Below, in pieces: positions 8,430-63,915 of a stretch of 64,000 nucleotides of DNA. The stretch lies in the NCBI RefSeq assembly GCF_024345975.1, contig NZ_JAGQCD010000008.1:62001-126000 (forward strand), written 5' to 3'. Numbering within the stretch: position 1 is the first letter of the stretch; each line of letters starts with the position of its first letter. This stretch comes from Cyanobium sp. Cruz-8D1 (lineage in GTDB: Bacteria > Cyanobacteriota > Cyanobacteriia > PCC-6307 > Cyanobiaceae). The notes beneath the pieces were generated by a model that saw nothing but the letters and a program-made list of their open reading frames with translations, did no database searches and had not been told where the DNA came from. The translations under genes and the position numbers were made by a program.

Positions 8430-9749
8430 CTACTGCCGGACCAGTCCTTCGTAGCGCTGGGAGATCACGTAGGTCTGGACCTGCTTGGCGGTGTCGATGG
8501 CCACGCCCACCAGGATCAGCAGGGAGGTGGCCCCCAGGCCCTGGAAGGTGCGCACCTGGGTGGCGCCTTCGACGGCCGAGGGGATGATCGCGATGGCCCC
8601 GAGGAACAGCCCCCCCAGCAGGGTGAGCCGGTTGGACACCCCGGAGAGGTAGTCGGCGGTGGCCGAGCCGGGGCGCACCCCGGGGATGGCGACGCCGGAG
8701 CGCTTCAGGTTGGTGGCGATGTCCACCGGGTTGACGGTGAGGGAGGCGTAGAAGAAGGCGAAGCCGCAGATCAGGGCGAAGTACACCAACGCATAGACCC
8801 AGGGGGTGCTGCTGGTGGGGTTGAGATAGCCCGCCACCCGGATCAGCCAGGCGCTTTTGGTGAGGTTGGCGATGGTGAGCGGCAGGAACACCACCGCCGA
8901 GGCGAAGATGATCGGCATGACGCCGCCGGCGTTGAGCTTCAGGGGCAGGTAGCTCTGGCGCGAGGCCAGGGTGCTGGCACCGCCCACCTGGCGCTTGGCG
9001 CTCACGATCGGGATGCGGCGACTGCCTTCCTGAAGAAAGATGATCCCCACGATCGTCACCAGGAAGACGAGCACGAGGACGACGATGCCGCCCACCGTGG
9101 CCCGGTCACCGCTCTGGGCCAGCTGGATGGTGGAGCCCAGGGCCTTGGGCAGGGTGGCCACGATGTTGATGAAGATCACCAGGGAGGCCCCCTGGCCGAT
9201 GCCCCGTTCGGTGATCACCTCGCTGACCCACATCACCACCATCGAACCGGTGACCAGGGCCAGGCTTGTCTGGACGACGAACAACCATTCCGGCAGGCCC
9301 GGCAGGGCGTATTGCCGCAAGATGAGGGCAAAAACGACGCTCTGCAGGATGCCCCAGCCGAGGGCCACATAGCGGGTGATCTGGGCCAGCTTGCGTCGGC
9401 CGGCCTCGCCTTCGTTCTTCTGCAGCTCCTCGAGCTGGGGCAGGGCCGCCGTCATCAGCTGGATGATGATCGAGGCATTGATGAAGGGCAGGATGCCCAG
9501 GGCGAACACCCCCAGGGTGGAGAGGCCGCCGCCGGTGAAGATGTCCAGGAAGCCGATCAGCTGGCCGCCCTGGCGGATGAAGTCCTGGAAGGCCACCCGG
9601 TCGATGCCTGGCACCGGGATGTAGATGCCGAGTCGCACCAGCAGCAGCAGGCCCAGGGTGGTGAGCACCCGATCCCGCAGGCCCTTCGACTGGACCAGCT
9701 GGACGAGGATTTCAGCGGCGCTCGGATTGCGCCCCCTGCTGAGGAGCAT
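8430..9749 (-). CDS. secY: protein translocase subunit SecY
   Basis: Central channel of the Sec translocon. The 439 residues contain ten hydrophobic segments, the GIYIPVPGID N-terminal region, the plug-side stretch GGGLSTLGVFALGILPFINASI and the C-terminal GGLFLGAIAIIPS and LLILVGVAIDT. Start ATG 9749 (MLLSRGRNPSAAEI) is chosen; the frame is open to 9809, but upstream residues are non-conserved. In cyanobacteria the same SecYEG would serve plasma and thylakoid membranes. Confidence 0.97.
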   Translation of the reverse strand: MLLSRGRNPSAAEILVQLVQSKGLRDRVLTTLGLLLLVRLGIYIPVPGIDRVAFQDFIRQGGQLIGFLDIFTGGGLSTLGVFALGILPFINASIIIQLMTAALPQLEELQKNEGEAGRRKLAQITRYVALGWGILQSVVFALILRQYALPGLPEWLFVVQTSLALVTGSMVVMWVSEVITERGIGQGASLVIFINIVATLPKALGSTIQLAQSGDRATVGGIVVLVLVFLVTIVGIIFLQEGSRRIPIVSAKRQVGGASTLASRQSYLPLKLNAGGVMPIIFASAVVFLPLTIANLTKSAWLIRVAGYLNPTSSTPWVYALVYFALICGFAFFYASLTVNPVDIATNLKRSGVAIPGVRPGSATADYLSGVSNRLTLLGGLFLGAIAIIPSAVEGATQVRTFQGLGATSLLILVGVAIDTAKQVQTYVISQRYEGLVRQ

Positions 9750-9857
9750 GGTGATGTCGGGAGTGGATGGAACGGGTCGATACGACCGGAGCCGCCTGCC
9801 GCAGCACAAGGCTACGGGCAGACGGCTCCGGGCTGGAGGCAGGGCAACGGCCCGGGC

Positions 9858-10313
9858 TCAGTCGATGACTTCGCAGCTGCCGCCGGCGGCTTCGATCTTG
9901 GCGCGGGCCGAAGCGGTGAAGGCGGCGGCCTGGACCGTCAGTTTCACCGTGAGTTCACCATTGCCGAGCACCTTGAGCGGGTAGCGGGGGCTGGTGACCA
10001 GACCGGCCTGCTCCAGGGAGTCGAGGCTGACGCTGCTGCCCGCCTTCAGCTCACCCAGCCGTGACACGTTGATCACGGTGTAGTGGGTGGGGTTGATGAC
10101 CGGGAAGTGCTTGAGCTTCGGAATCCGGCGGTAAAGGGGCATCTGGCCACCCTCGAAGCCGGGGCGGGTGGGGCTGCCGGAGCGGGACTTCTGGCCACGC
10201 ATGCCGAAGCCGCAGCTGGCGCCCTGGCCGGCGGCGATGCCGCGACCCTTGCGCAGCTTGCGCTTGCGGGACCCCTTCTGGGGCTGGAGGTTGTTGAGAG
10301 AGAAGGACGTCAT
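9858..10313 (-). CDS. rplO: 50S ribosomal protein L15
   Basis: Late-assembly large-subunit protein of 151 residues. Typical Gly-rich N-terminus ([19 protein letters not shown], then [10 protein letters not shown]) and C-terminal mixed domain ([20 protein letters not shown]). It follows rpsE directly; rpmD (L30) is absent between them, as usual in cyanobacteria. Confidence 0.97.
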
Positions 10314-10321
10314 GGCGGGCC

Positions 10322-10987
10322 TCAGGAGTAAATCTGCTCGAGGGAGATGCCCCGCTCCTTGGCGGTCTCCTTGTGGGTGCGCAGGCCTTCGAGGGCCTGC
10401 ATGGCGGCGCGGGCGTTGTTGAGCGGGGTCTTGGAGCCCAGCCGCTTCGCCAGCACGTTTTTGATACCGGCCAGTTCGAGCACGGTGCGGATCGAACCGC
10501 CCGCGATCACCCCGGTACCGGGGGCAGCCGGGCGGATCAGCACGCTGGCGGCGCCGTCGCGGCCGTTGCTGAGGGTGGGGATCGAACTGTTGCGGGTGAG
10601 GGGCACCTTGACCAGATGTTTCTTGCCATCGGCCACGCCCTTGCGGACGGCGCCGATGACATCGCCGGCCTTACCGACGCCCACGCCCACCTGGCCGCGC
10701 TCGTTGCCGACGACGACGATGGCCCGGAAGCTCATCTTCTTGCCGCCTTTGACGGTCTTGGAGACACGGCGGATCTGCACCACCCGCTCCTGCCATTCGG
10801 AGTCGCGTTCCTGGCCGCGGCGGTTGTCGCGGCCACGGCCGCCGCCGCCGCCCCGGCGGTCGCCCTTGGCATCGCCGCGGCCGCCACCGCCGCCCCGGCG
10901 CTGCTCCTGCTGGCCTTCAGCAGCGGCGGGGACGTCGGAGGCCGCAGGTACGGCGCCGGTCTGGATCTGGTCGTTGGTTTCGGTCAT
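10322..10987 (-). CDS. rpsE: 30S ribosomal protein S5
   Basis: Small-subunit accuracy protein at the mRNA entry. It has 221 residues, with an N-terminal low-complexity Gly/Arg/Asp-rich extension (about residues 20-65) followed by the S5 double-stranded RNA-binding domain ([20 protein letters not shown]-like) and the C-terminal beta-alpha domain. The extension is also seen in other cyanobacterial S5 proteins. Confidence 0.97.
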
Positions 10988-55035: not shown

Positions 55036-57999
55036 ATGTCCAAACCCGGAGAACACAAAACCGTCCAAGCCCGGATTCTCGGCTATGCCGAGTCTATTGG
55101 CTGGACGATTGTGACCCGCGAAGAAGCCGAGCAGCTTCGCGGCTTTGATCCAGGCGCCCCACACGCGGACAGGGCCAAGAACCGGTCCCTCTTCTTCGAC
55201 GATCTGCTTGACGCCAAGCTGCGCGAATTCAACCCGCGCTACGCCGAGGCCGAGGGCGCGTTGCTCGGGCAGTTCCGTCATCTGCACACCGACATCCACG
55301 GCAACCGGGAATTCGTCGAGCACCTGCGCAACCGTGGGAAGTTCTTCGATCACGAGGAGAAGCGCGAGCGTGATCTGATCCTGATCGATTACGACGACCG
55401 CGACAGGGTGCCGGAGGCACGCAAGAACATCTACGAAGTCACCGAGGAGTGGGCCTTCCACAACGGTCACTACGGCACCCGTGAGGATTTGGTCTTTCTG
55501 ATCAACGGCATCCCCGTGCTGGTGATCGAATGCAAGAACGCCAATAAGCAGGAAGCCATCGATCTGGGTATCGATCAGATCCGCCGCTATCACCGCGAAA
55601 CGCCCGAGCTGTTCGTCAGCCAGCAGCTGTTCACCGCCACCGATGCCATCGGCTTTTCCTATGGCGTGAGCTGGAACACAGTGCGGCGCAACCTCTTCAA
55701 CTGGAAGCACGAGCAGGTGGGCCAGCTGGAGGCCAAGATCAAGAGCTTCTGCGCCATCCCGCAGCTCCTCGATTTCCTGCAGCACTACATCGTCTTCGCC
55801 GAGAAAGACGAAGAACTCAACAAATACATCCTGCGCCAGCACCAAACCGCAGCTGTCGATGCGTCCGTCGCCCGTGCCCTAGATCCCCACCGCCGGCGAG
55901 GCCTGATCTGGCACACCCAGGGCAGCGGCAAGACCTTCACCATGATCAAAACAGCGGAGCGGCTCTTCCGTGCCCCAGAAGCCGACAAGCCCACCGTGCT
56001 GTTGATGATCGACCGCAATGAGCTGGAAGATCAGATGCTCAAGAACCTCTCCGCCCTCGGCCTGGGCAACCTGGAGCACGCCAGCAGCATCGCCCGCCTA
56101 AACCAACTTCTCCGCGACAACTACCGGGGAATCATTGTCACGATGATCCACAAATTCCGCGACATGCCTGCGGATCTCAACACCCGCTCGAACATCTATG
56201 TGTTGATCGACGAAGCCCACCGCACCACCGGCGGCGACCTCGGCACCTTCCTGATGGCCGGCCTGCCGAATCCCACCTTCCTCGGCTTCACCGGCACCCC
56301 CGTCGACAAAACCATCTACGGCAAGGGCACCTTCAAAACCTTCGGCTGCGAAGACGACAAGGGTTACCTGCACAAATACTCAATAGCCGAAAGCATCGAA
56401 GACGGCACCACCCTGCCCCTCTACTACCAGCTCGCCCCCAACGAGATGCTCGTGCCCCACGAGATCCTCGACGCCGAGTTTCTCTCCCTTGCCGAAGCCG
56501 AGGGTGTGGCCGACATCGAGGAGCTCAACAAGATCCTTGAGCGGGCGGTGAACCTCAAGAACTTCCTCAAGGGCAAAGATCGCATCCAGCAGGTGGCCCG
56601 CTTTGTAGCCAGACACTATGTGGAGAACGTGGAGCCTTTGGGCTACAAGGCCTTCCTGGTGGGCGTCGATAGAGAAGCCTGCGCTCTCTACAAGCACGCC
56701 CTCGATGCCGTGTTCACCGAGATGGGCCTGCCCCCTGAGATCTCGGAGGTGGTCTACACCCGCAACAACAACGACACCGCCCTGCTCAAGGAGTTCCACC
56801 TCGACCCGAAAAAGGAGCGGCAGATCCGCAAAAGTTTCGGCAAGCTCGATCAGCAGCCCAAGATCCTCATCGTCACCGAGAAACTACTCACCGGCTTCGA
56901 TGCACCCGTGCTTTATGCAATGTATCTCGATAAGCCGATGCGCGATCACACCCTGCTGCAGGCCATAGCTCGGGTGAATCGCCCCTACGAGAACGAGGCC
57001 CTTGAAATGGTGAAGCCCCACGGCTTCGTGCTCGATTTCGTCGGCATCTTCGACAAGCTCGAAAAAGCCCTCGCCTTCGACAGCGACGAGATCAATGCCA
57101 TCGTCAAAGATCTCAAGCTGCTCAAGGTGCTCTTCCAGAACAAGATGGAGAGCAAGGCCCCCGCCTACCTCGCCCTTATTGAGCAGAACTTCAACGACAA
57201 GGACATTGATAACCTCGCCGAGCACTTCCGCGATCCCGAACGGCGAAAGGAGTTCTTTAAGGAATACAAGGAGATCGAGATGCTCTACGAGATCATCTCG
57301 CCCGATGCCTTCTTGCGGCCATTCATCGATGCTTTCACTACGCTCTCGGCCATCTACGCGATTGTGCGCAAGGCGTACAGCACCAGCGTAACGGTGGATC
57401 GTGAGTTTCAACGCAAAACCAATGCCCTCGTGCAAGAAAATGTCAGCGCGAGCCAGATCCAAGCCCGAGGCATTTTCGAGGCTGTGTTGATCAACAGCGA
57501 CACGATTGAACTGATCAAGGCACGGCAGGGTGGAGACGGCACCAAAGTGATCAACCTGGTGAAAAGCATCGAGAAGTTCGCCGAAGAGAACAGCGATGAT
57601 CCCTTCCTGATCGCCATGGCCGAACGGGCTCGGTTGGTGCAAGAGAGCTTTGAGCAGCGCCAAACCTCTACCGCCGAAGCACTGGAGGAACTGCTGGCCG
57701 AAGTTCGACACAACGAAGCACGCAAGAAGGAGCAGGCGGAGAGGGGCTTTGATGACTTGACATTCTTTGTTTTTCAGAACCTTGAAGCTGCACAAATCAG
57801 TCACCCCGTGGAAGTAAGCGCCAAGATCAAAGCGGCTTTCGTGCAGTTCCCCAACTGGCAAAGGAGCGACAACGAGTTGCGTGAGCTACGTAAGAAGGTC
57901 ACATTTGCAATCTTTGCCGAATGCGATCAACTAGAGCAGGTCACGCCTTTGGTTGAGGGGCTATTTGCGTTGCTCTTGAAGATTGATAAGAACGGATGA
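55036..57999 (+). CDS. hsdR: type I restriction-modification endonuclease subunit
   Basis: DNA-translocating restriction subunit, 987 residues. The N-terminal PD-(D/E)xK nuclease has LVFLINGIPVLVIECKNANK. The SF2 motor has Walker A WHTQGSGKTFTMIK, DEAHRTTGGDLGTF, LGFTGTPVDK and the motif VI region AIARVNRPYENEAL. A helical C-terminal domain follows. It starts 3 bases after the ABC ATPase stop and overlaps the metallopeptidase gene as ATGA. GC rises again here compared with the three genes before. Confidence 0.95.
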   Translation: MSKPGEHKTVQARILGYAESIGWTIVTREEAEQLRGFDPGAPHADRAKNRSLFFDDLLDAKLREFNPRYAEAEGALLGQFRHLHTDIHGNREFVEHLRNRGKFFDHEEKRERDLILIDYDDRDRVPEARKNIYEVTEEWAFHNGHYGTREDLVFLINGIPVLVIECKNANKQEAIDLGIDQIRRYHRETPELFVSQQLFTATDAIGFSYGVSWNTVRRNLFNWKHEQVGQLEAKIKSFCAIPQLLDFLQHYIVFAEKDEELNKYILRQHQTAAVDASVARALDPHRRRGLIWHTQGSGKTFTMIKTAERLFRAPEADKPTVLLMIDRNELEDQMLKNLSALGLGNLEHASSIARLNQLLRDNYRGIIVTMIHKFRDMPADLNTRSNIYVLIDEAHRTTGGDLGTFLMAGLPNPTFLGFTGTPVDKTIYGKGTFKTFGCEDDKGYLHKYSIAESIEDGTTLPLYYQLAPNEMLVPHEILDAEFLSLAEAEGVADIEELNKILERAVNLKNFLKGKDRIQQVARFVARHYVENVEPLGYKAFLVGVDREACALYKHALDAVFTEMGLPPEISEVVYTRNNNDTALLKEFHLDPKKERQIRKSFGKLDQQPKILIVTEKLLTGFDAPVLYAMYLDKPMRDHTLLQAIARVNRPYENEALEMVKPHGFVLDFVGIFDKLEKALAFDSDEINAIVKDLKLLKVLFQNKMESKAPAYLALIEQNFNDKDIDNLAEHFRDPERRKEFFKEYKEIEMLYEIISPDAFLRPFIDAFTTLSAIYAIVRKAYSTSVTVDREFQRKTNALVQENVSASQIQARGIFEAVLINSDTIELIKARQGGDGTKVINLVKSIEKFAEENSDDPFLIAMAERARLVQESFEQRQTSTAEALEELLAEVRHNEARKKEQAERGFDDLTFFVFQNLEAAQISHPVEVSAKIKAAFVQFPNWQRSDNELRELRKKVTFAIFAECDQLEQVTPLVEGLFALLLKIDKNG

Positions 58000-58301
58000 G
58001 TTTTGCTGCGAAACTGGCCTTTAAGGAACGTGTGCGCTCCTGGGCACAAAAACTTGATGTGCATGTCGTATGGCTTGGTGTCCGTCCTATGCGCAGCAAG
58101 TGGGCCTCCTGCTCAACCAATGGCCACCTCAACTTCAGCGTTGATCTGCTCAGCCTGGATCCCACATTCTGGGATTATGTAATCGTTCACGAGCTTCTTC
58201 ACTTTTCCATTCCTAACCACGGCCGGCTGTGGAAGGCCCTCATGCGGGCACATCTCGGAGACTGGGAAGAGATCGAGAAGAAACTCAAGCAGAACGCTTA
58301 A
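57996..58301 (+). CDS. YgjP-like metallopeptidase (DUF45, short form)
   Basis: 101 residues. The zinc motif HELLHFSIPNHGRLW (HExxH plus a third His) and the upstream RPMRSKWASCSTNGHLNFSV are typical of the YgjP/WLM metallopeptidases found beside type I hsdR genes. It is shorter than free-standing YgjP (about 160-230 residues) and keeps only the catalytic core. It is the last gene of the operon, coupled to hsdR by ATGA. Confidence 0.88.
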   Translation: MSFAAKLAFKERVRSWAQKLDVHVVWLGVRPMRSKWASCSTNGHLNFSVDLLSLDPTFWDYVIVHELLHFSIPNHGRLWKALMRAHLGDWEEIEKKLKQNA

Positions 58302-58410: not shown

Positions 58411-58782
58411 TTGGCCACCCGCGCCGTCTTTCCCTTCATCGGCTTTCCAGGAGCCCCGCAGTGCCATCTCTACCTCCATCACGACGGCTACCCCACCGGA
58501 GCCGCCTGGTGCTTTGCGGAGGCCCTGCGCGAAAATCCTGAACCCGCCTCCTTCCTCGCTGCCTTCCTGAGCACCCAGCAGCAAGCGGAACCCCTGGCCA
58601 CCCCAGAGCAGGCCGCCGATGCCGAGTACCGCTACCGAGTGCAGCTCGTCCCGGACGCACACCCCCACCTACAAGTCCAGTGCTGGCGTCGGATCCCAGG
58701 CTGCCGCAGCTGGATTCCCCGCTGCGGACCCATGCCGTTGGCGCCCTTCATCCAGCGCTTCCTGCCCGGTGATCCGCTTTGA
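58411..58782 (+). CDS. hypothetical protein
   Basis: 123 residues from TTG 58411. It starts LATRAVFPFIGFPGAPQCHL-like with YLHHDGYPTGAAWCFAEALR and has a C-terminal VQCWRRIPGCRSWIPRCGP with four spaced aromatic/Cys positions. No family is recognised by name, though the pattern looks conserved rather than random. The 3' end overlaps brnT by 14 bases. There are 109 bases without a gene before it. Confidence 0.5.
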   Translation: MATRAVFPFIGFPGAPQCHLYLHHDGYPTGAAWCFAEALRENPEPASFLAAFLSTQQQAEPLATPEQAADAEYRYRVQLVPDAHPHLQVQCWRRIPGCRSWIPRCGPMPLAPFIQRFLPGDPL

Positions 58783-59038
58783 CCCGGCCAAGCGCCTGCG
58801 AACCCTGGAGCAGCGCGGCCTGGATTTTCTTGATGCTGAGACTGTCTTCGCCGGCCCAACGATCGAGGTCCCCGATCGAAGGCGAGACTATGGTGAAATC
58901 AGAATCGTCTGCGTTGGATGGCTGCGAGGCCGCGCCGTGATCGTGGTCTACACGGAGCGCAACGACATCAGGCACATCATCTCCATGCGAAAGGCCAATG
59001 AGCGAGAACAACGTCGTTTTTTCCCCGATCTTTCCTGA
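58769..59038 (+). CDS. brnT: BrnT-family toxin
   Basis: RelE-like ribonuclease toxin, 89 residues from GTG 58769 (VIRFDPAKRLRTLEQRGLDF). It has the BrnT pattern FDPAKxxxxxxxxGLDFLDAETVF and the C-terminal VVYTERNDIRHIISMRKANE REQ. It overlaps the next small gene by 41 bases. Confidence 0.85.
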   Translation: MIRFDPAKRLRTLEQRGLDFLDAETVFAGPTIEVPDRRRDYGEIRIVCVGWLRGRAVIVVYTERNDIRHIISMRKANEREQRRFFPDLS

Positions 59039-59204
59039 AGGCAAGATCCACTCTGATCTTCAGCGCGTCGATGCCCATGTCATCCAACCCGAAGAATATG
59101 TAGAGATCCCCGAAATCACGGAGGAAGATCTCACTCACGCCGTGATCAAGCGCCCTGGCCAGCCGGATCAGCCTTTTGTGGCCAAACCAACCCAAGCCTC
59201 TTGA
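58998..59204 (+). CDS. BrnA-like antitoxin, probably lacking its DNA-binding end
   Basis: 68 residues from ATG 58998. The middle part (EEYVEIPEITEEDLTHAVI) matches the acidic BrnT-binding section of BrnA antitoxins, usually followed by a ribbon-helix-helix domain. Here the protein ends after KRPGQPDQPFVAKPTQAS, so that domain is missing. Either a truncated antitoxin that binds but cannot repress, or a different short type. Confidence 0.6.
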   Translation: MSENNVVFSPIFPEGKIHSDLQRVDAHVIQPEEYVEIPEITEEDLTHAVIKRPGQPDQPFVAKPTQAS

Positions 59205-59215
59205 CCCCTTAGGCC

Positions 59216-60157
59216 TCAGTGCCTCAGGGCTTCTCGGTGGGCACGCAAGAACGCCTCCTGCTCGCGGCTGAACGGCCGGATCAGATTCGCCCCTTGGATG
59301 CCCCAGCAGCGCAAGGCCTCGCCGGCGGCCTCGTGCTGCCAGATCAGCTCACCGCCTGAGTCGAAGCTGATCCAGTGGCGATCAAACAGCTTGTCCATAT
59401 GGGGGGAGAGCAGCAGTCCGTTGGATCCGCTCAGCCGTTCGCAGTTGTCGCAGGATCGCCAGGGTTTGATGTGGCTCGCCACCAGGAACTCCTGCCGCGC
59501 CAGCCCCGTGACCCGGCAGGCCGGCTCCAGCTCCGACACCCGATGGCGAAACAACCCCTGCCCCAGCCGCGCCTTGGTGAGCGCATCGCGCTCGGTGCGG
59601 CTCGGCACCTCCCGCAACCGCTGCATGTCATCGAGCAGGGCATCGGTGTAGGCGCCCTCTTCCGCTAGTACCACCAGGTGCACCCGCACCGCCGGATCGG
59701 CGTGCTCCTCGATCAGCTTCACCAGCAGCAGCCCCAGGGTTTCGCTCAGCCCAGCCAGGTACACCCCCTGCAGTCCCTTCCCTGTGCTTGTGCTGATCGG
59801 GCTGTGGCGTTCCGGAAGCAGTGGTTGCAGCAGCTCAAAGAACGTCTGCGGCACCAGGGCCTGGCGCAGCGGCTGCCAGTTCACCCGCACCAGCCAGCCC
59901 TCCTGGCTCCAGTTCTCCCCCGCTGAGCCGAACTCCGGCGGCTTGGTGGCCGTGATCGCCGCCGTTTCCACCAGGCCGAGCTGGCTTTTGCGCCCGTTGG
60001 CATAGCTGAACACGACATCCCCCCGCTGGCAGTGGCTGAGGTTGTCGTAGGTCACGTTGCGGGCGCCGTTGGCATTGGCCTTCGGTGACCAGATGTAGCC
60101 GCCGTCGGTCTCTTGCCGGTAGGTCTGCTTGTGGTTCACCCACCAGTAGGAGGGCAC
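59216..60157 (-). CDS. EVE-HNH modification-dependent endonuclease
   Basis: Probable restriction enzyme against modified-cytosine DNA. From GTG 60157 it has 313 residues. The N-terminal EVE-like reader is SYWWVNHKQTYRQE, GGYIWSPKANANGARN, GDVVFSYANGRKSQLG. The C-terminal HNH is RHRVSELEPACRVTG, LVASHIKPWRSCDN and LLLSPHMDKLFDRHWISF. This two-domain order is known from EVE-HNH nucleases. The reading frame is open further upstream to 60997 through remnants of an HNH-HIT gene, so a fused, longer product cannot be excluded. Confidence 0.82.
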   Translation of the reverse strand: MPSYWWVNHKQTYRQETDGGYIWSPKANANGARNVTYDNLSHCQRGDVVFSYANGRKSQLGLVETAAITATKPPEFGSAGENWSQEGWLVRVNWQPLRQALVPQTFFELLQPLLPERHSPISTSTGKGLQGVYLAGLSETLGLLLVKLIEEHADPAVRVHLVVLAEEGAYTDALLDDMQRLREVPSRTERDALTKARLGQGLFRHRVSELEPACRVTGLARQEFLVASHIKPWRSCDNCERLSGSNGLLLSPHMDKLFDRHWISFDSGGELIWQHEAAGEALRCWGIQGANLIRPFSREQEAFLRAHREALRH

Positions 60158-60229
60158 GGATCCGGCCAGTACTTGTGTCTTTGTAGCCGAGGTGAGGCGG
60201 GCTGTCTTCAGTAGGCCCGTCTCGACGGG

Positions 60230-60930
60230 ATTACCACCCGCACGCACCCAACCCCGCGGCTGCTCACTGCCCCCCTCTCGCCTCGGGATCCAATGCCAGT
60301 GCGCTTGAAACACCGTCTGACCCGCCGTCTCTCCTGAGTTCAGCCCCCCTCTTGCGTTGAGCAAACCAGCCCAGCCGCGGATCGACGCGTCCTGGGCACT
60401 CAGTTGCTCCCGCCGCAGCTTCAGCAGCTCCACCACGGCGTTCCACTCCGGCTGGTGCAGCTCCAGCCCGTCGGCCCCATGACGACGAGGGATCACCAGG
60501 CTGTGCCCATCGTTCTCCAGCAGCACCCGGTCGCTGCCCTCCAGCGCGCAGAACACACAGCCCGCTTCGCGGTGGCCGTAGCTGGCCTGCACACCGCGGA
60601 AGTCGGTGCGCCCTCTTGCGTAGGCAAACAGCCGTCGCGCTTGCCGGCGTTGCAGCGGAAGCAGAGCGCCTGCAGGTTGGTGATGGCGTCGGAGCCGGCC
60701 TGGTTTTTGGGGATGATGGGTGCCACCTCCAGGGCGCGCTGGTGCTCGTGCGCGCCGCAGCAATCGCAGCGGCCCTGGGCGCATCGGTGAAGCCGGTATC
60801 TCATCGAGCCGCTGATCGGGCTGCTCGCGGAAGGCATCGAGGCGCTGGCGGCAGAGCTCCAGCAGCGCGTCGCGCTCGCCATCGCTCAGCTCGTCGCCGC
60901 CGATCAGGCTGTAGGCGCCGTCGCTGGGGG
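60230..60930 (-). pseudogene. HNH-HIT gene copy 1, frame-broken
   Basis: Pieces in order: SLIGGDELSDGERDALLELC (N-terminal region), then in another frame the HNH CDCCGAHEHQRALEV, with the catalytic DH replaced by AP (EVAPIIPKNQ), CFRCNAGKR, and back in the first frame the HIT domain GCVFCALEGSDRVLLENDGH ... QTVFQAHWHWIPRREGG. The HIT active triad H-x-H-x keeps AHWHW. Loss of HNH residues and two frame changes mark it as decayed. Its HIT end runs in frame into the EVE-HNH gene. Confidence 0.75.
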
Positions 60931-61061
60931 GCCAGGTGGGGACTGCGGGGTGACAGGGGTGGCACTTGCCCATTGAGGAACCATCTCCTTTTGGCAATGG
61001 CCACCCACCCCGTCCACCAGGACACCAACCTCAGCTCACTTACTATGGTTCAGCCTGAAAC

Positions 61062-61706
61062 ATGGTTCCTGCGATGCCCCCAGCCCTCACCGCCGCCACA
61101 GGGGCTGCCCTGCTCGGAGCCGATGCCCGTCTGCTGAGTCAGGAATACCGCCGTGTGCTGGCCCCGCCCGAATCGCCTTCCTCCACAGCACCGCTGCGCC
61201 TGGGCTTTCGTGAGCTGCTCTACTTCCAGGTGGTCAGCGCACTGAGTGCCGAGGGCCTGCAGCTTTCGCCTGTTCAGAAGCGTCAGGTGTTCCGTGTCCT
61301 CACCGAGAAGACTCAGCGGTTGCCTGTGGACTCACCCCCGGGTCAGGTCGCTGTGGGTGAATGGTCCCGTGGCCACGGTGAACTGCGCAAAACCGGTGCG
61401 GTGTCCTTCAGCTTTGATCTCAGCAGCGTGAGCCGGGAGCTCCGGTATCGCTATCGGCTCCTCAGGCGGCCCCATGCCCTGGTGGAGAGCAATCCAGCCA
61501 TCTGCTCGGGGCAACCTGTGTTTCGGGGCACCCGAATTCCAGTCGCCGTGGTTGTGGAGCAGCTGCGCTCCGGCGTCAGCCGCACCGACCTGGAGGCCGA
61601 CTTTCCCCAGCTCAGCAGGCAGGCCCTCGACTACGCCCAGATCCAGGCCCGCCTGCCGAAGCCTCCAGGCCGTCCCCGCCAACCTCTCACCCTGCAGCGC
61701 GGCTGA
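61062..61706 (+). CDS. DUF433 antitoxin with long N-terminal domain
   Basis: 214 residues from ATG 61062. The first 130 residues resemble a MerR-like or regulatory extension (FRELLYFQVVSALSAEGLQL, SPVQKRQVFRVLTEK). The C-terminal DUF433 domain is NPAICSGQPVFRGTRIPVAV and LEADFPQLSRQALDYA. Long forms of this kind pair with DUF5615 toxins. The downstream toxin is frameshifted. Confidence 0.8.
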   Translation: MVPAMPPALTAATGAALLGADARLLSQEYRRVLAPPESPSSTAPLRLGFRELLYFQVVSALSAEGLQLSPVQKRQVFRVLTEKTQRLPVDSPPGQVAVGEWSRGHGELRKTGAVSFSFDLSSVSRELRYRYRLLRRPHALVESNPAICSGQPVFRGTRIPVAVVVEQLRSGVSRTDLEADFPQLSRQALDYAQIQARLPKPPGRPRQPLTLQRG

Positions 61707-61717
61707 AGGCCCATCCC

Positions 61718-62082
61718 TTGAGGCTGTTGATCGACGAAAACCTCAGCCCTCGTCTCGCCCGTTGGGTCTGTGACATGGGAATTCCAGCAGAGGCGGCCGT
61801 GCATGTGCTGCGGATGAGGATGTCTTCGCCCACGCACTGGCCTGGGATCAGATTGTGGTCACGGTGAACGTGGGGGATTTCATGCGATTGGCCGCCGCCA
61901 TAGACGTTCACCCAGGCGTGATCGCTCTCAGGGAAGCTGGTTTGAATGCGGAAGAGCAATGGCTCAGGGTCCAGTCAGCCTTGCAGCTGATCAACCAGAG
62001 CCGTGACCCTGACATGGTTAACCGGGTGCTTGAAGTTCAATCCGACGTTGTTGTCCGATGGCATGAGATTCCCGCCAGCTGA
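61718..62082 (+). pseudogene. DUF5615 PIN-like toxin with frameshift
   Basis: TTG 61718 begins LRLLIDENLSPRLARWVCDM, the DUF5615 start. After AAVHV (near 61806) the frame shifts by one; the expected ADEDVFAHALAWDQIVVTVN and GDFMRLAAAIDVHPGVIALR continue in the next frame to the stop at 62082. One missing base explains it. Confidence 0.75.
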
Positions 62083-62084
62083 TC

Positions 62085-62685
62085 TCACCACCTCTGTATC
62101 GAATGAACCAGCTCCACCACGGCGTTCCACTCCGGCTGGTGCAGCTCCAGCCCGACGGCCCCATGACGACGCGGGATCACCAGGCTGTGCCCCTCGCTCA
62201 CGGGATAGGCATCGGCGATGCAGAGCGCCTGCAGGTTGCTGATGGCGTCGGAGCCGCCCTGGTTCTTGGGGAGGATGTGGTCCACCTCCAGGGCCCGCTG
62301 GTGCTCGTGGGCGCCGCAGCACTCGCAGCGGCCCCGGGCGCATCGGTGAACCCTGTAGTTCACCGAGCCGCTGATCGGGCTGCTCGCGGAAGGCATCGAG
62401 GCGCTGGCGGCAGAGCTCCAGCAGCGCGTTGCGCTCGCCATCGCTCAGGTCGTCGCCGCCGATCAGGCTGTCGTGGCCATCGCCATGGGCGGTGATGCCG
62501 TTGAGGGTGAACCCGGCCCACCATCGGTTGCCCAGGATCCGCCGGGCCACGTCCTGCGCTGGGGCGGGGCTGCGGCGGCCGAGCAGTTCCAGCAGCATGA
62601 GCGGTTGGTAGATGTGGCTCATGCGCATCTGCTTGGCGATGTACTCGCGCAGGCGCTGGTAGGTGGTGGAGGGGGGCGGGGGCAT
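62085..62685 (-). pseudogene. HNH-HIT gene copy 2, frame-broken and deleted
   Basis: ATG 62685 begins MPPPPSTTYQRLREYIAKQM and reaches DDLSDGERNALLELCRQRLD, then the frame is lost at the same place as in copy 1. The HNH frame reads CECCGAHEHQRALEVDHILP with intact DH, KNQGGSDAISNLQAL, then jumps by deletion to the HIT part ADAYPVSEGHSLVIPRRHG and stops at 62085. The HIT His triad is gone. Confidence 0.78.
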
Positions 62686-62794
62686 GGGGGAATCCTGGCG
62701 GGTGTGACTGGGGGTGGCACTGGTGAAGAGGAAGTTCTGCCGCCAGGTCATGCTTCTCACCCGTCCATGGAACAGAAGTGGCAAGGTCTCTACG

Positions 62795-63034
62795 ATGGGT
62801 GATCTGGAGTTGTCAGAGCCTGTGCGTACCTTCTCAGCCGTGATCGAGCGCTGCCCGGACACCGGTCTGCTGGTGGGGTATGTCCCGGGCTTCCCGGGGG
62901 CTCACAGCCAGGGCGAGACCCTCGACGAGTTGCAGGCCAACCTCCAGGAGGTGATCGCCATGCTCCTTGAAGACGGCGAACCTGCCTTGGAGAGTGATTT
63001 CGTAGGTCTGCAGCAGATCATCGTGCCGGCCTGA
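62795..63034 (+). CDS. hicB: HicB-type antitoxin
   Basis: 79 residues from ATG 62795 (MGDLELSEPVRTFSAVIERC). It has the HicB fold pattern DTGLLVGYVPGFPGAHSQGE and LDELQANLQEVIAMLLED. The frame is open to 62714 without conservation. Two bases separate it from hicA. This pair looks complete. Confidence 0.85.
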   Translation: MGDLELSEPVRTFSAVIERCPDTGLLVGYVPGFPGAHSQGETLDELQANLQEVIAMLLEDGEPALESDFVGLQQIIVPA

Positions 63035-63036
63035 GC

Positions 63037-63261
63037 GTGGGCGCAACGCCGGTTCTCAGACCATCAGAGGTGGCAGACATCCTCAGAAAGCTGGGCTTCG
63101 AAGTTGTTCGTCAGCGTGGCTCCCACCAGCAGTTCCGTGATTCCCGCGGTCGCTGCACCACGGTTCCAATGCATAAAGGCCGCGATATCGCTCCTCCCTT
63201 GCTCCGCCAGATCACCAAAGACATCGGCATGACACTGGCCGAGTTCCTCAGCTACCGCTGA
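63037..63261 (+). CDS. hicA: HicA-type toxin
   Basis: mRNA interferase, 74 residues from GTG 63037. It has the full HicA pattern: VADILRKLGFEVVRQRGSHQ with the catalytic His, CTTVPMHKGRDIAPPLLRQI and DIGMTLAEFLSYR. It is coupled to hicB and is the only clearly intact hicBA with a full-length toxin in this window. Confidence 0.88.
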   Translation: MGATPVLRPSEVADILRKLGFEVVRQRGSHQQFRDSRGRCTTVPMHKGRDIAPPLLRQITKDIGMTLAEFLSYR

Positions 63262-63651
63262 GTTCAGCATCTGCACAAAAGGCTGGCGCCGCAATGACAG
63301 CAGCTGGTTGCATTCCCTGTCGCTTCGGCGATGAACGCGCGCAGGCGAAGGAAGGCAGCAGTGGGGCTGGAGGCCATGGAGTGATGCTGGCGGCTGCCGG
63401 GCGACCGGGCCAGGTTTGGTTTTGGGCAGCCCGGCAGGCAGGCGCCCCTGCTGAGATCCCTTCTGGTGTGGCTGTGCCGCCCCAGTCCCCGACCCGTGCT
63501 CTCGACCGTCGCGTGGACAAGGGCCCGTCGTTATGAGCGTGGACGGCAGGCAGAAGGGAGAGAACCGGGATCCAGCAGCCTGTCCCGAGGACGGGGGCTT
63601 TCTGATTCGGAGATGCCCCAGAGGGCCGAAAAGGTATAGAATAAGCACCCT
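63262..63651. other. region without a supported gene between hicA and brnT
   Basis: The 390 bases have open frames on both strands, but none shows a domain or a start with a ribosome-binding site. Just before brnT there is a -10-like TATAGA at 63635-63640 and then the ATG at 63652, leaving room for only a few untranslated bases. I see no hairpin or repeat that I trust. Confidence 0.45.
63635..63640 (+). promoter_or_regulatory. possible -10 element of brnTA
   Basis: TATAGA lies 11 bases before the brnT ATG, and no purine-rich Shine-Dalgarno is present between them. A start here would give a very short or leaderless mRNA. No convincing -35 can be seen 17 bases upstream. Confidence 0.3.
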
Positions 63652-63915
63652 ATGGAGTTCGCGTTCGATCCAGTCAAGAGTGACTCCAACCTTGCCAAGC
63701 ACGGCATCGACTTCCTTGCTGCCCAGAAGCTCTGGAACGATTCGGAGCTCCTGGAGGTTCCGGCCCGCACCACCGGAGAGCCAAGATTTCCAGTGATCGG
63801 CAGGATTGGCCTCAAGCACTGGTCGGCCGTGATCACCGACCGCGACCGGTGCATCCGATTGATTTCCGTTCGGCGGTCCAGACCAGAAGAGGTGGAGCTC
63901 TATGAACAGTTCTGA
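63652..63915 (+). CDS. brnT: BrnT-family toxin
   Basis: RelE-like ribonuclease toxin, 87 residues, starting MEFAFDPVKSDSNLAKHGID. It has FLAAQKLWNDSELLEVPART, HWSAVITDRDRCIRLISVRR and the end RPEEVELYEQF, all standard for BrnT. It overlaps its antitoxin start by 14 bases. It is unlike the first BrnT at 58769 in sequence. Confidence 0.9.
   Translation: MEFAFDPVKSDSNLAKHGIDFLAAQKLWNDSELLEVPARTTGEPRFPVIGRIGLKHWSAVITDRDRCIRLISVRRSRPEEVELYEQF

Follow-up and report, generated by a model that had tools for sequence, protein, structure and literature searches.

The reverse-strand open reading frame of 593 codons analysed here is most probably an accident of gene decay and not the gene of a fusion enzyme. 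It lies in a stretch of 64,000 nucleotides (the window) from the 3.97-Mb genome of Cyanobium sp. Cruz-8D1, on contig C87 and 375 bp from the contig end. Our reading, to which we give a probability of about 0.92 on sequence comparison, is that an EVE-HNH endonuclease gene starts on its own at the GTG at 60157, that an HNH-HIT pseudogene adjoins it upstream, that a 4-nt insertion joined the two frames, and that HNH-HIT copies form the repeats in an array of toxin-antitoxin pairs. The features of the joined frame are as follows.

59216..60997 (-): accidental joined frame, 593 codons, TTG start at 60997
59216..60157 (-): EVE-HNH gene, 313 aa, GTG start at 60157, predicted VcaM4I-type modification-dependent nuclease (hmmsearch, Foldseek, shared start)
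60181..60187 (-): GCTACAA box, putative -10 element of EVE-HNH (box type common to 27 of 33 upstream regions)
60208..60210 (-): TGA that once ended HNH-HIT, no longer in the HIT frame (the aligned L040 gene stops at this place)
60244..60247 (-): insertion of 4 nt close to the HIT C-terminus, joining the HIT frame to the EVE frame (from the indels relative to L037; its precise position varies with the alignment)
60208..60926 (-): terminal HNH-HIT copy (copy 1), pseudogene, model nt 243-1002 (nhmmer on L066 4209-4927, E=1e-174)

The EVE-HNH enzyme

In an hmmsearch with a 38-sequence profile, VcaM4I (PDB 6yex, 309 aa) matched the 313-aa EVE-HNH protein over its whole length (E=7.8e-121, profile positions 1-304). 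A structure model built from the 38-sequence alignment reached a mean pLDDT of 88.8 and a pTM of 0.56, and replaced a model from a shallower alignment (pLDDT 41.9). Foldseek with the deeper model placed 6yex at the top (E=1.7e-33, 38% identity), followed mainly by single EVE-like and YTH domains. The architecture of an N-terminal EVE (PUA-like) fold and a C-terminal HNH is present by the model, Foldseek and the HNH_2 match. The Pfam EVE model gave no match at E<=1 in the 593-codon frame; by the full-length VcaM4I profile match and the predicted fold, the first domain is EVE.

The available text of PMC7897488 gives T11, E15, W22, P24, W82, Q128 and Y130 as the residues of the flipped-base pocket and wedge of VcaM4I, and H224, N241, D250 and D254 as the catalytic residues of its HNH. 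Alignment to 6yex places T12, E16, W23, P25, W83, Q130 and Y133, and H229, N246, D255 and D259, at the equivalent positions of the window's protein. All eleven are invariant among the 38 sequences except Q130, which is kept in at least 90% of them. By analogy with VcaM4I, the enzyme would flip a modified cytosine (5mC or 5hmC) into the EVE pocket and cut with the HNH. Its likeness to the VcaM4I-type endonucleases (PDB 6yex, and PMC7897488 as far as its available text goes) consists of the full-length alignment, the domain order, the start and the eleven residues, whereas identity in the Foldseek alignment is the 38% given above; the specificity proposed here is predicted from this likeness. 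Judged in this way, EVE-HNH adds one more VcaM4I-type nuclease to an already known group.

EVE-HNH matches were found in 36 of the 149 relatives searched, part of them to the HNH end only, and the near relatives were mostly Cyanobium, Aphanothece, Synechococcus and uncultured cyanobacterium records. In all 23 oriented loci, the window's own included, a start codon (GTG, TTG or ATG) coincides with that of 60157 or stands one codon further on; of the 23 genes, those of L019, L026, L027 and L028 are interrupted or truncated. A GCTACAA-type box, its words picked after viewing the sequences of these related loci, occurs in 27 of 33 upstream regions, whether HNH-HIT precedes EVE-HNH or not, and its distance to the EVE-HNH start is always 28-32 nt; of 6200 random 60-nt stretches drawn from these loci, 50 (0.8%) contain such a box. 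The box gives support, and not proof, to a candidate promoter element belonging to EVE-HNH itself. That EVE-HNH is a separate gene starting at GTG 60157 is shown by this comparison among loci. A start upstream of HIT was considered, and is contradicted by the shared start and the box, both by comparison only.

The joined frame and the question of a fusion

As the preliminary description had it, the frame consists of HIT remnants and a complete EVE-HNH: it is open from the TTG, residues 163-241 match Pfam HIT (E=1.1e-6) and residues 494-546 match HNH_2 (E=5.8e-11), the HNH-HIT part shows 5' loss and indels, and the alignment to VcaM4I covers the whole enzyme. The decay of the HNH-HIT gene, also proposed there, is borne out. 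Compared with an intact gene, at least the first 130 aligned nt are gone, the nhmmer match starting at model nt 243, and the alignment with intact L037 gives seven indels of -6, -2, -41, +17, -39, +18 and +4 nt. The -39 nt change, common to L040, deletes 13 HIT core residues, and the HNH domain of the HNH-HIT gene no longer lies in the frame. About 110 HIT codons, including an HxHxH-like stretch (QAHWHW), remain open and in frame. The HIT frame runs past the old TGA because of the +4 nt insertion at about 60244-60247; this insertion put the HIT stop out of frame, and stop-free, high-GC DNA completes the joined frame. As far as these alignments tell, the joined frame is a by-product of HNH-HIT decay.

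If the 593-codon frame encoded a genuine HIT-EVE-HNH fusion enzyme, its openness and its HIT and HNH_2 matches would be accounted for, and a second in-frame join exists in Synechococcus sp. WH 5701. A fusion is nevertheless highly improbable: the 13 core residues are missing, the HNH of HNH-HIT is out of frame, the common start and the box are both positioned after HIT, the joins in the window and in WH 5701 come from different shifts, and VcaM4I is active without HIT according to the available text on that enzyme. The search found 72 further loci, of which 70 were examined, L115 and L117 being skipped because the match began inside the gene. HIT-domain sequence in an open EVE frame was met in one of the 70, that of WH 5701 (L088, about 8885-10939), where HNH-HIT query residues 6-316 lie in the open EVE-HNH frame through a different frameshift, the HIT catalytic stretch thereafter being out of frame. 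In L092, a piece of the N-terminal half of HNH-HIT (residues 83-154) lies in the open EVE frame, without the HIT domain. An in-frame HIT occurs in a single one of the 70 other loci, through a shift of its own, and in the window the HIT core has a deletion; the fusion protein was rejected. The preliminary description had preferred a frame accident to a true fusion, and the EVE-HNH start at 60157, as in relatives, agrees with it. It had also named a start at or near 60157 and an absence of such fusions elsewhere as evidence against a fusion; the former holds by comparison and not by mapping, the latter with a single exception (L088) among the 70 loci. The fusion claim falls, which closes the lead on a new fusion enzyme.

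Upstream open frames of 88-246 codons precede EVE-HNH in L119, L122, L124, L126, L128, L129, L130, L134, L135, L149-L152 and L155, which belong to bacteria such as Pseudomonas. Pfam scans of the N-terminal extensions of seven non-cyanobacterial members (six and L119) found DUF7662 in L124 only and HIT in none of the seven. These extensions are possible extra sensors.

HNH-HIT as a neighbour of EVE-HNH

Intact HNH-HIT genes, open frames ending at their own stop, are present in L023, L037, L038 and L039, and the L023 protein matches Pfam HNH (E=1.4e-14) and HIT (E=5.4e-16). A phage or plasmid origin of HNH-HIT was also looked into and dropped: none of the records spans 80% of the query, and it is the HIT end that the best 15 of 74 and of 72 records cover.

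Seventeen of the 32 named loci have, 47-51 nt ahead of the EVE-HNH start, an HNH-HIT copy extending to the 3' end of the model, with its stop. Six of these copies (L090, L093, L101, L108, L111 and L113) are open over at least 348 codons including the gene start; the one in L090 is without the 13 HIT residues. The other 15 loci have no HNH-HIT copy before EVE-HNH, or a truncated one. The pairing is not universal. Elsewhere, other genes follow the last HNH-HIT: L073 and L076 have a set of two genes there, and L069 has an IS5 transposase.

These arrangements bear on the earlier proposal that EVE-HNH had landed in an HNH-HIT gene already decayed. The proposal drew on a second HNH-HIT copy, whose existence is confirmed (62034-62685) and which, in favour of the proposal, is not followed by EVE-HNH. 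Yet copy 1, which precedes EVE-HNH, still extends at its 3' side to the old stop, and in the 17 loci, six of them with an open HNH-HIT frame, the genes stand side by side in the same manner. Insertion is the least probable of all the alternatives considered here. EVE-HNH would be a defence gene that often neighbours the end of the array.

The two-gene set (L073 12956-14589, L076 5632-7394) stands in the EVE-HNH place, 4 nt after a full-length HNH-HIT, and one of its genes has a weak DnaJ-domain match. The transposase of L069, of the IS5 family, is the one transposase that was noticed.

An array of HNH-HIT repeats and toxin-antitoxin pairs

Upstream of EVE-HNH the window holds further HNH-HIT copies with small genes between them.

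61062..61706 (+): DUF433 gene, antitoxin-like half of cassette 1 (Pfam PF04255, E=4e-16; cassette shared with L072 and L082)
61718..62082 (+): DUF5615-type toxin half of cassette 1, frameshifted, two frames needed (3' part clusters with L082:421-714, Pfam DUF5615)
62034..62685 (-): HNH-HIT copy 2, model 1-550 and 687-877, internal deletion (nhmmer; Pfam HNH, E=3e-11)
62714..63034 (+): HicB-like antitoxin, cassette 2 (Pfam HicB_lk_antitox, E=3e-5, below the curated cut-off)
63037..63261 (+): HicA toxin, cassette 2 (Pfam, E=5e-18)
63311..63377 (-): HNH-HIT copy 3 remnant, model 1-66 (nhmmer, E=2e-4; leader matches the leaders of other copies)
63652..63915 (+): BrnT toxin, cassette 3 (Pfam, E=1.5e-21; antitoxin gene runs past the window end)

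At least three HNH-HIT copies are thus present in the window, the decayed gene before EVE-HNH being the last; an intact copy was not found in the window's genome. The remaining 75-aa part of the cassette 1 toxin alone gave no Pfam match. Contig C52 plausibly continues C87, by strand and flanks, the ends having no overlap.

On the other side of EVE-HNH lie two more loci of the forward strand.

55036-57999 (+): type I restriction HsdR-like gene (PADLOC REase_I, E=3e-96)
58619-59204 (+): BrnT toxin gene followed by a 68-aa ORF, convergent with EVE-HNH (Pfam, E=2e-21 for BrnT)

The type I gene nearby had been reported in the preliminary description and was found again, at these coordinates. A YgjP-like metallopeptidase ORF (Pfam, E=1e-27) follows it, the pair lying within 55036-58301 (+). 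The 68-aa ORF gave no Pfam match and is presumably the antitoxin of BrnT; the same small ORF adjoins EVE-HNH in L068 and L075.

Among same-genus genomes, 31 of 41 had at least five HNH-HIT matches, and so had 6 of 49 others of the family, counts that include unrelated HIT and HNH proteins. For a closer comparison, 20 regions (L066-L085) from 18 genomes, the window's own among them, were chosen for carrying several copies and are not a random sample; they were searched with an HNH-HIT DNA model built from six full-length genes. All 124 matches lie on one strand per region, and in the 32 named loci 84 of 84 matches lie on the EVE-HNH strand, some genomes being in both sets. The 124 matches merge to 107 copies: 12 are full, 72 are 5'-anchored and truncated at the 3' side, 20 are internal and 3 have the 3' end only. 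The excess of 5'-anchored over 3'-anchored copies (72 versus 3) gives a binomial p of 3.7e-18, for copies that are not independent. Fifteen regions have a last copy that is not flagged at the region end, and in 13 of them this copy includes the 3' end, L071 and L077 being the exceptions; in L075 the first copy in the row also reaches nt 990. The ATG is kept in 69 of the 72 start-bearing copies and, gaps excluded, sequence conservation increases in about the last 20 nt leading up to it. Two common leaders extend further upstream, and some copies directly follow another gene.

In nine genomes an array copy lies 80-2340 nt from an AMP-binding gene, which we take to be menE; the window's own genome (contig C52) has part of this gene only. 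This neighbourhood places the array at one chromosomal position in those genomes.

ORFs of the arrays were called with a home-made codon score and fell into 42 clusters of at least two members. One representative each of 34 clusters was scanned with Pfam; clusters 27, 29-32, 34, 37 and 38, which we took for antisense frames, pieces of EVE-HNH or small partner ORFs, were left out. Matches of the toxin-antitoxin type were obtained for 31 of the 34 families, three of them below the curated cut-off: ParE, HicA/HicB, BrnT, PIN/VapB, HepT/NTP_transf_2, GNAT/TacA, PemK, HTH_3/Gp49, DUF433/DUF5615 and others. We infer that GNAT, NTP_transf_2, HTH_3, DUF433 and DUF5615 are toxin-antitoxin parts here. 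Within clusters of at least three members, 123 of 149 ORFs are oriented opposite to HNH-HIT, and among the remaining 26 are some that resemble antisense frames. From one genome to another, the order of the recurring pairs changes. This comparison of regions shows an array whose repeats are the HNH-HIT copies, with toxin-antitoxin pairs standing between 5' pieces of a nuclease gene; the preliminary description had overlooked it.

As described in the available text of PMC12413379, a single freshwater or coastal Synechococcus/Cyanobium strain can carry up to 80 toxin-antitoxin genes, and freshwater and estuarine picocyanobacteria have dozens of them where open-ocean relatives have none or few, for which an ecological reason is given; that text gives no mechanism for the build-up. 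The systems of PMC5498466 and PMC12413379 resemble ours in organism group and kinds of genes, whereas no arrays are described in what is available of the two papers, whose texts do not contain the word 'HNH'. The array may explain how freshwater and estuarine picocyanobacteria amass dozens of toxin-antitoxin genes. A description of the HNH-HIT/toxin-antitoxin array was not found among the papers listed by literature searches, as judged by titles and the beginnings of abstracts. A paper that is, by its title, a survey of toxin-antitoxin systems in Synechococcus may bear on the novelty of the array. The array would be at least a novel form of cassette array.

How the array may grow

If copies arose mainly by tandem duplication in place, the nearest relatives of a copy should be in its own genome. 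They were for 8 of 70 copies, a value reached by 137 of 2000 shuffles, and since same-genome copies are not nearest relatives beyond chance, recent local duplication is unlikely as the main source; local tandem duplication is not supported. The family of a toxin-antitoxin pair is linked to the HNH-HIT start from which the pair diverges (identity 0.780 versus 0.740, 1 of 1000 shuffles), and no link was found to the copy that is truncated (0.728 versus 0.728, 484 of 1000 shuffles). These two results point to a unit composed of the pair and an HNH-HIT start, with a variable junction to the preceding copy. A toxin-antitoxin pair with the HNH-HIT start diverging from it would then be what the array passes on as its heritable unit. 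Units may be gained through recombination between HNH-HIT repeats of different strains, older copies would lose their 3' parts down to the next pair, and addiction would retain the pairs.

A recombinant terminal copy, with a foreign 5' part and a resident 3' part, seemed indicated at first (rho 0.37 versus 0.69, 16 loci), and the effect vanished without the copies gapped at the 5' side: when gapped copies were dropped, the 5' part of the terminal copy tracked EVE-HNH as well as the 3' part did (rho 0.59-0.75 versus 0.67). One prediction of array growth at the 3' end failed in this way.

Three explanations were weighed for what may drive array growth. HNH-HIT repeats could be passive homology for recombination between strains, toxin addiction retaining the units, a tentative reading which falls somewhat short of an even chance. 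It would agree with the dispersal of nearest relatives among genomes (the 8 of 70 above, within the shuffles) and with the link between the pair and the diverging HNH-HIT start, but leaves unexplained why the shared stretch should start so near the HNH-HIT start codon behind differing leaders. That boundary near the ATG would be natural if the HNH-HIT nuclease cut its own gene or start region and so drove the capture of units, like a homing endonuclease; the HNH domain of intact copies and the 3' end in the last copy in the 13 regions (L075 having a second such copy, first in its row) speak in the same direction. Cleavage is putative only, however, the window's genome yielded no intact copy, and the failed prediction of a foreign 5' and a resident 3' part in the last copy counts against it, so that a cutting nuclease appears doubtful. 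More doubtful still is the extended form of this idea, where HNH-HIT would be the engine of a gene capture other than that of integrons, the nuclease acting at or near its own start codon. A donor pair with its own HNH-HIT start would there replace the resident 3' part, leaving a lengthening row of truncated HNH-HIT genes and captured pairs, with one whole gene at the end. If HNH-HIT did drive the array, it would be a cassette-collecting system with neither integrase nor attC.

The third explanation is an integron, or an attC cluster without integrase. Chromosomal integrons have cassette arrays rich in toxin-antitoxin cassettes, and the arrays described here resemble them in that small toxin-antitoxin cassettes, in shuffled order, form a row with a gene for a full-length enzyme at one of its ends. 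Integron integrases occur commonly in the genus, and two array regions (L069 and L080) contain one. In contrast to integrons, the other 18 of the 20 regions yielded no integrase, the repeats are 5' pieces of the HNH-HIT gene, and a home-made scan of 314 kb of arrays, which gave six attC-like sites in L128, gave none, paired core words being present in 1 of 49 intervals. Nor was HNH-HIT present in any of six integrase neighbourhoods. This explanation is very unlikely, and for most arrays the integron was rejected, with an integrase in 2 of 20 regions and no attC-like sites.

Rhs/CDI orphan modules are displaced, each with a piece of the conserved core gene, a likeness to the units described here, which are modules carrying a core-gene piece as well. 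Unlike in Rhs/CDI, the truncated gene lies mostly on the strand opposite to that of the toxin pair, and the genes concerned form toxin-antitoxin pairs of the intracellular kind.

Intact integron integrase genes were observed in genomes G023, G018, G008, G013, G002 and G036 (L168-L173), and their six neighbourhoods had no HNH-HIT copies and few toxin-antitoxin-like matches. In a Chlorobiaceae MAG (L128), six attC-like sites, by the home-made scan alone, lie near the EVE-HNH gene, which may there be the neighbour of an integron.
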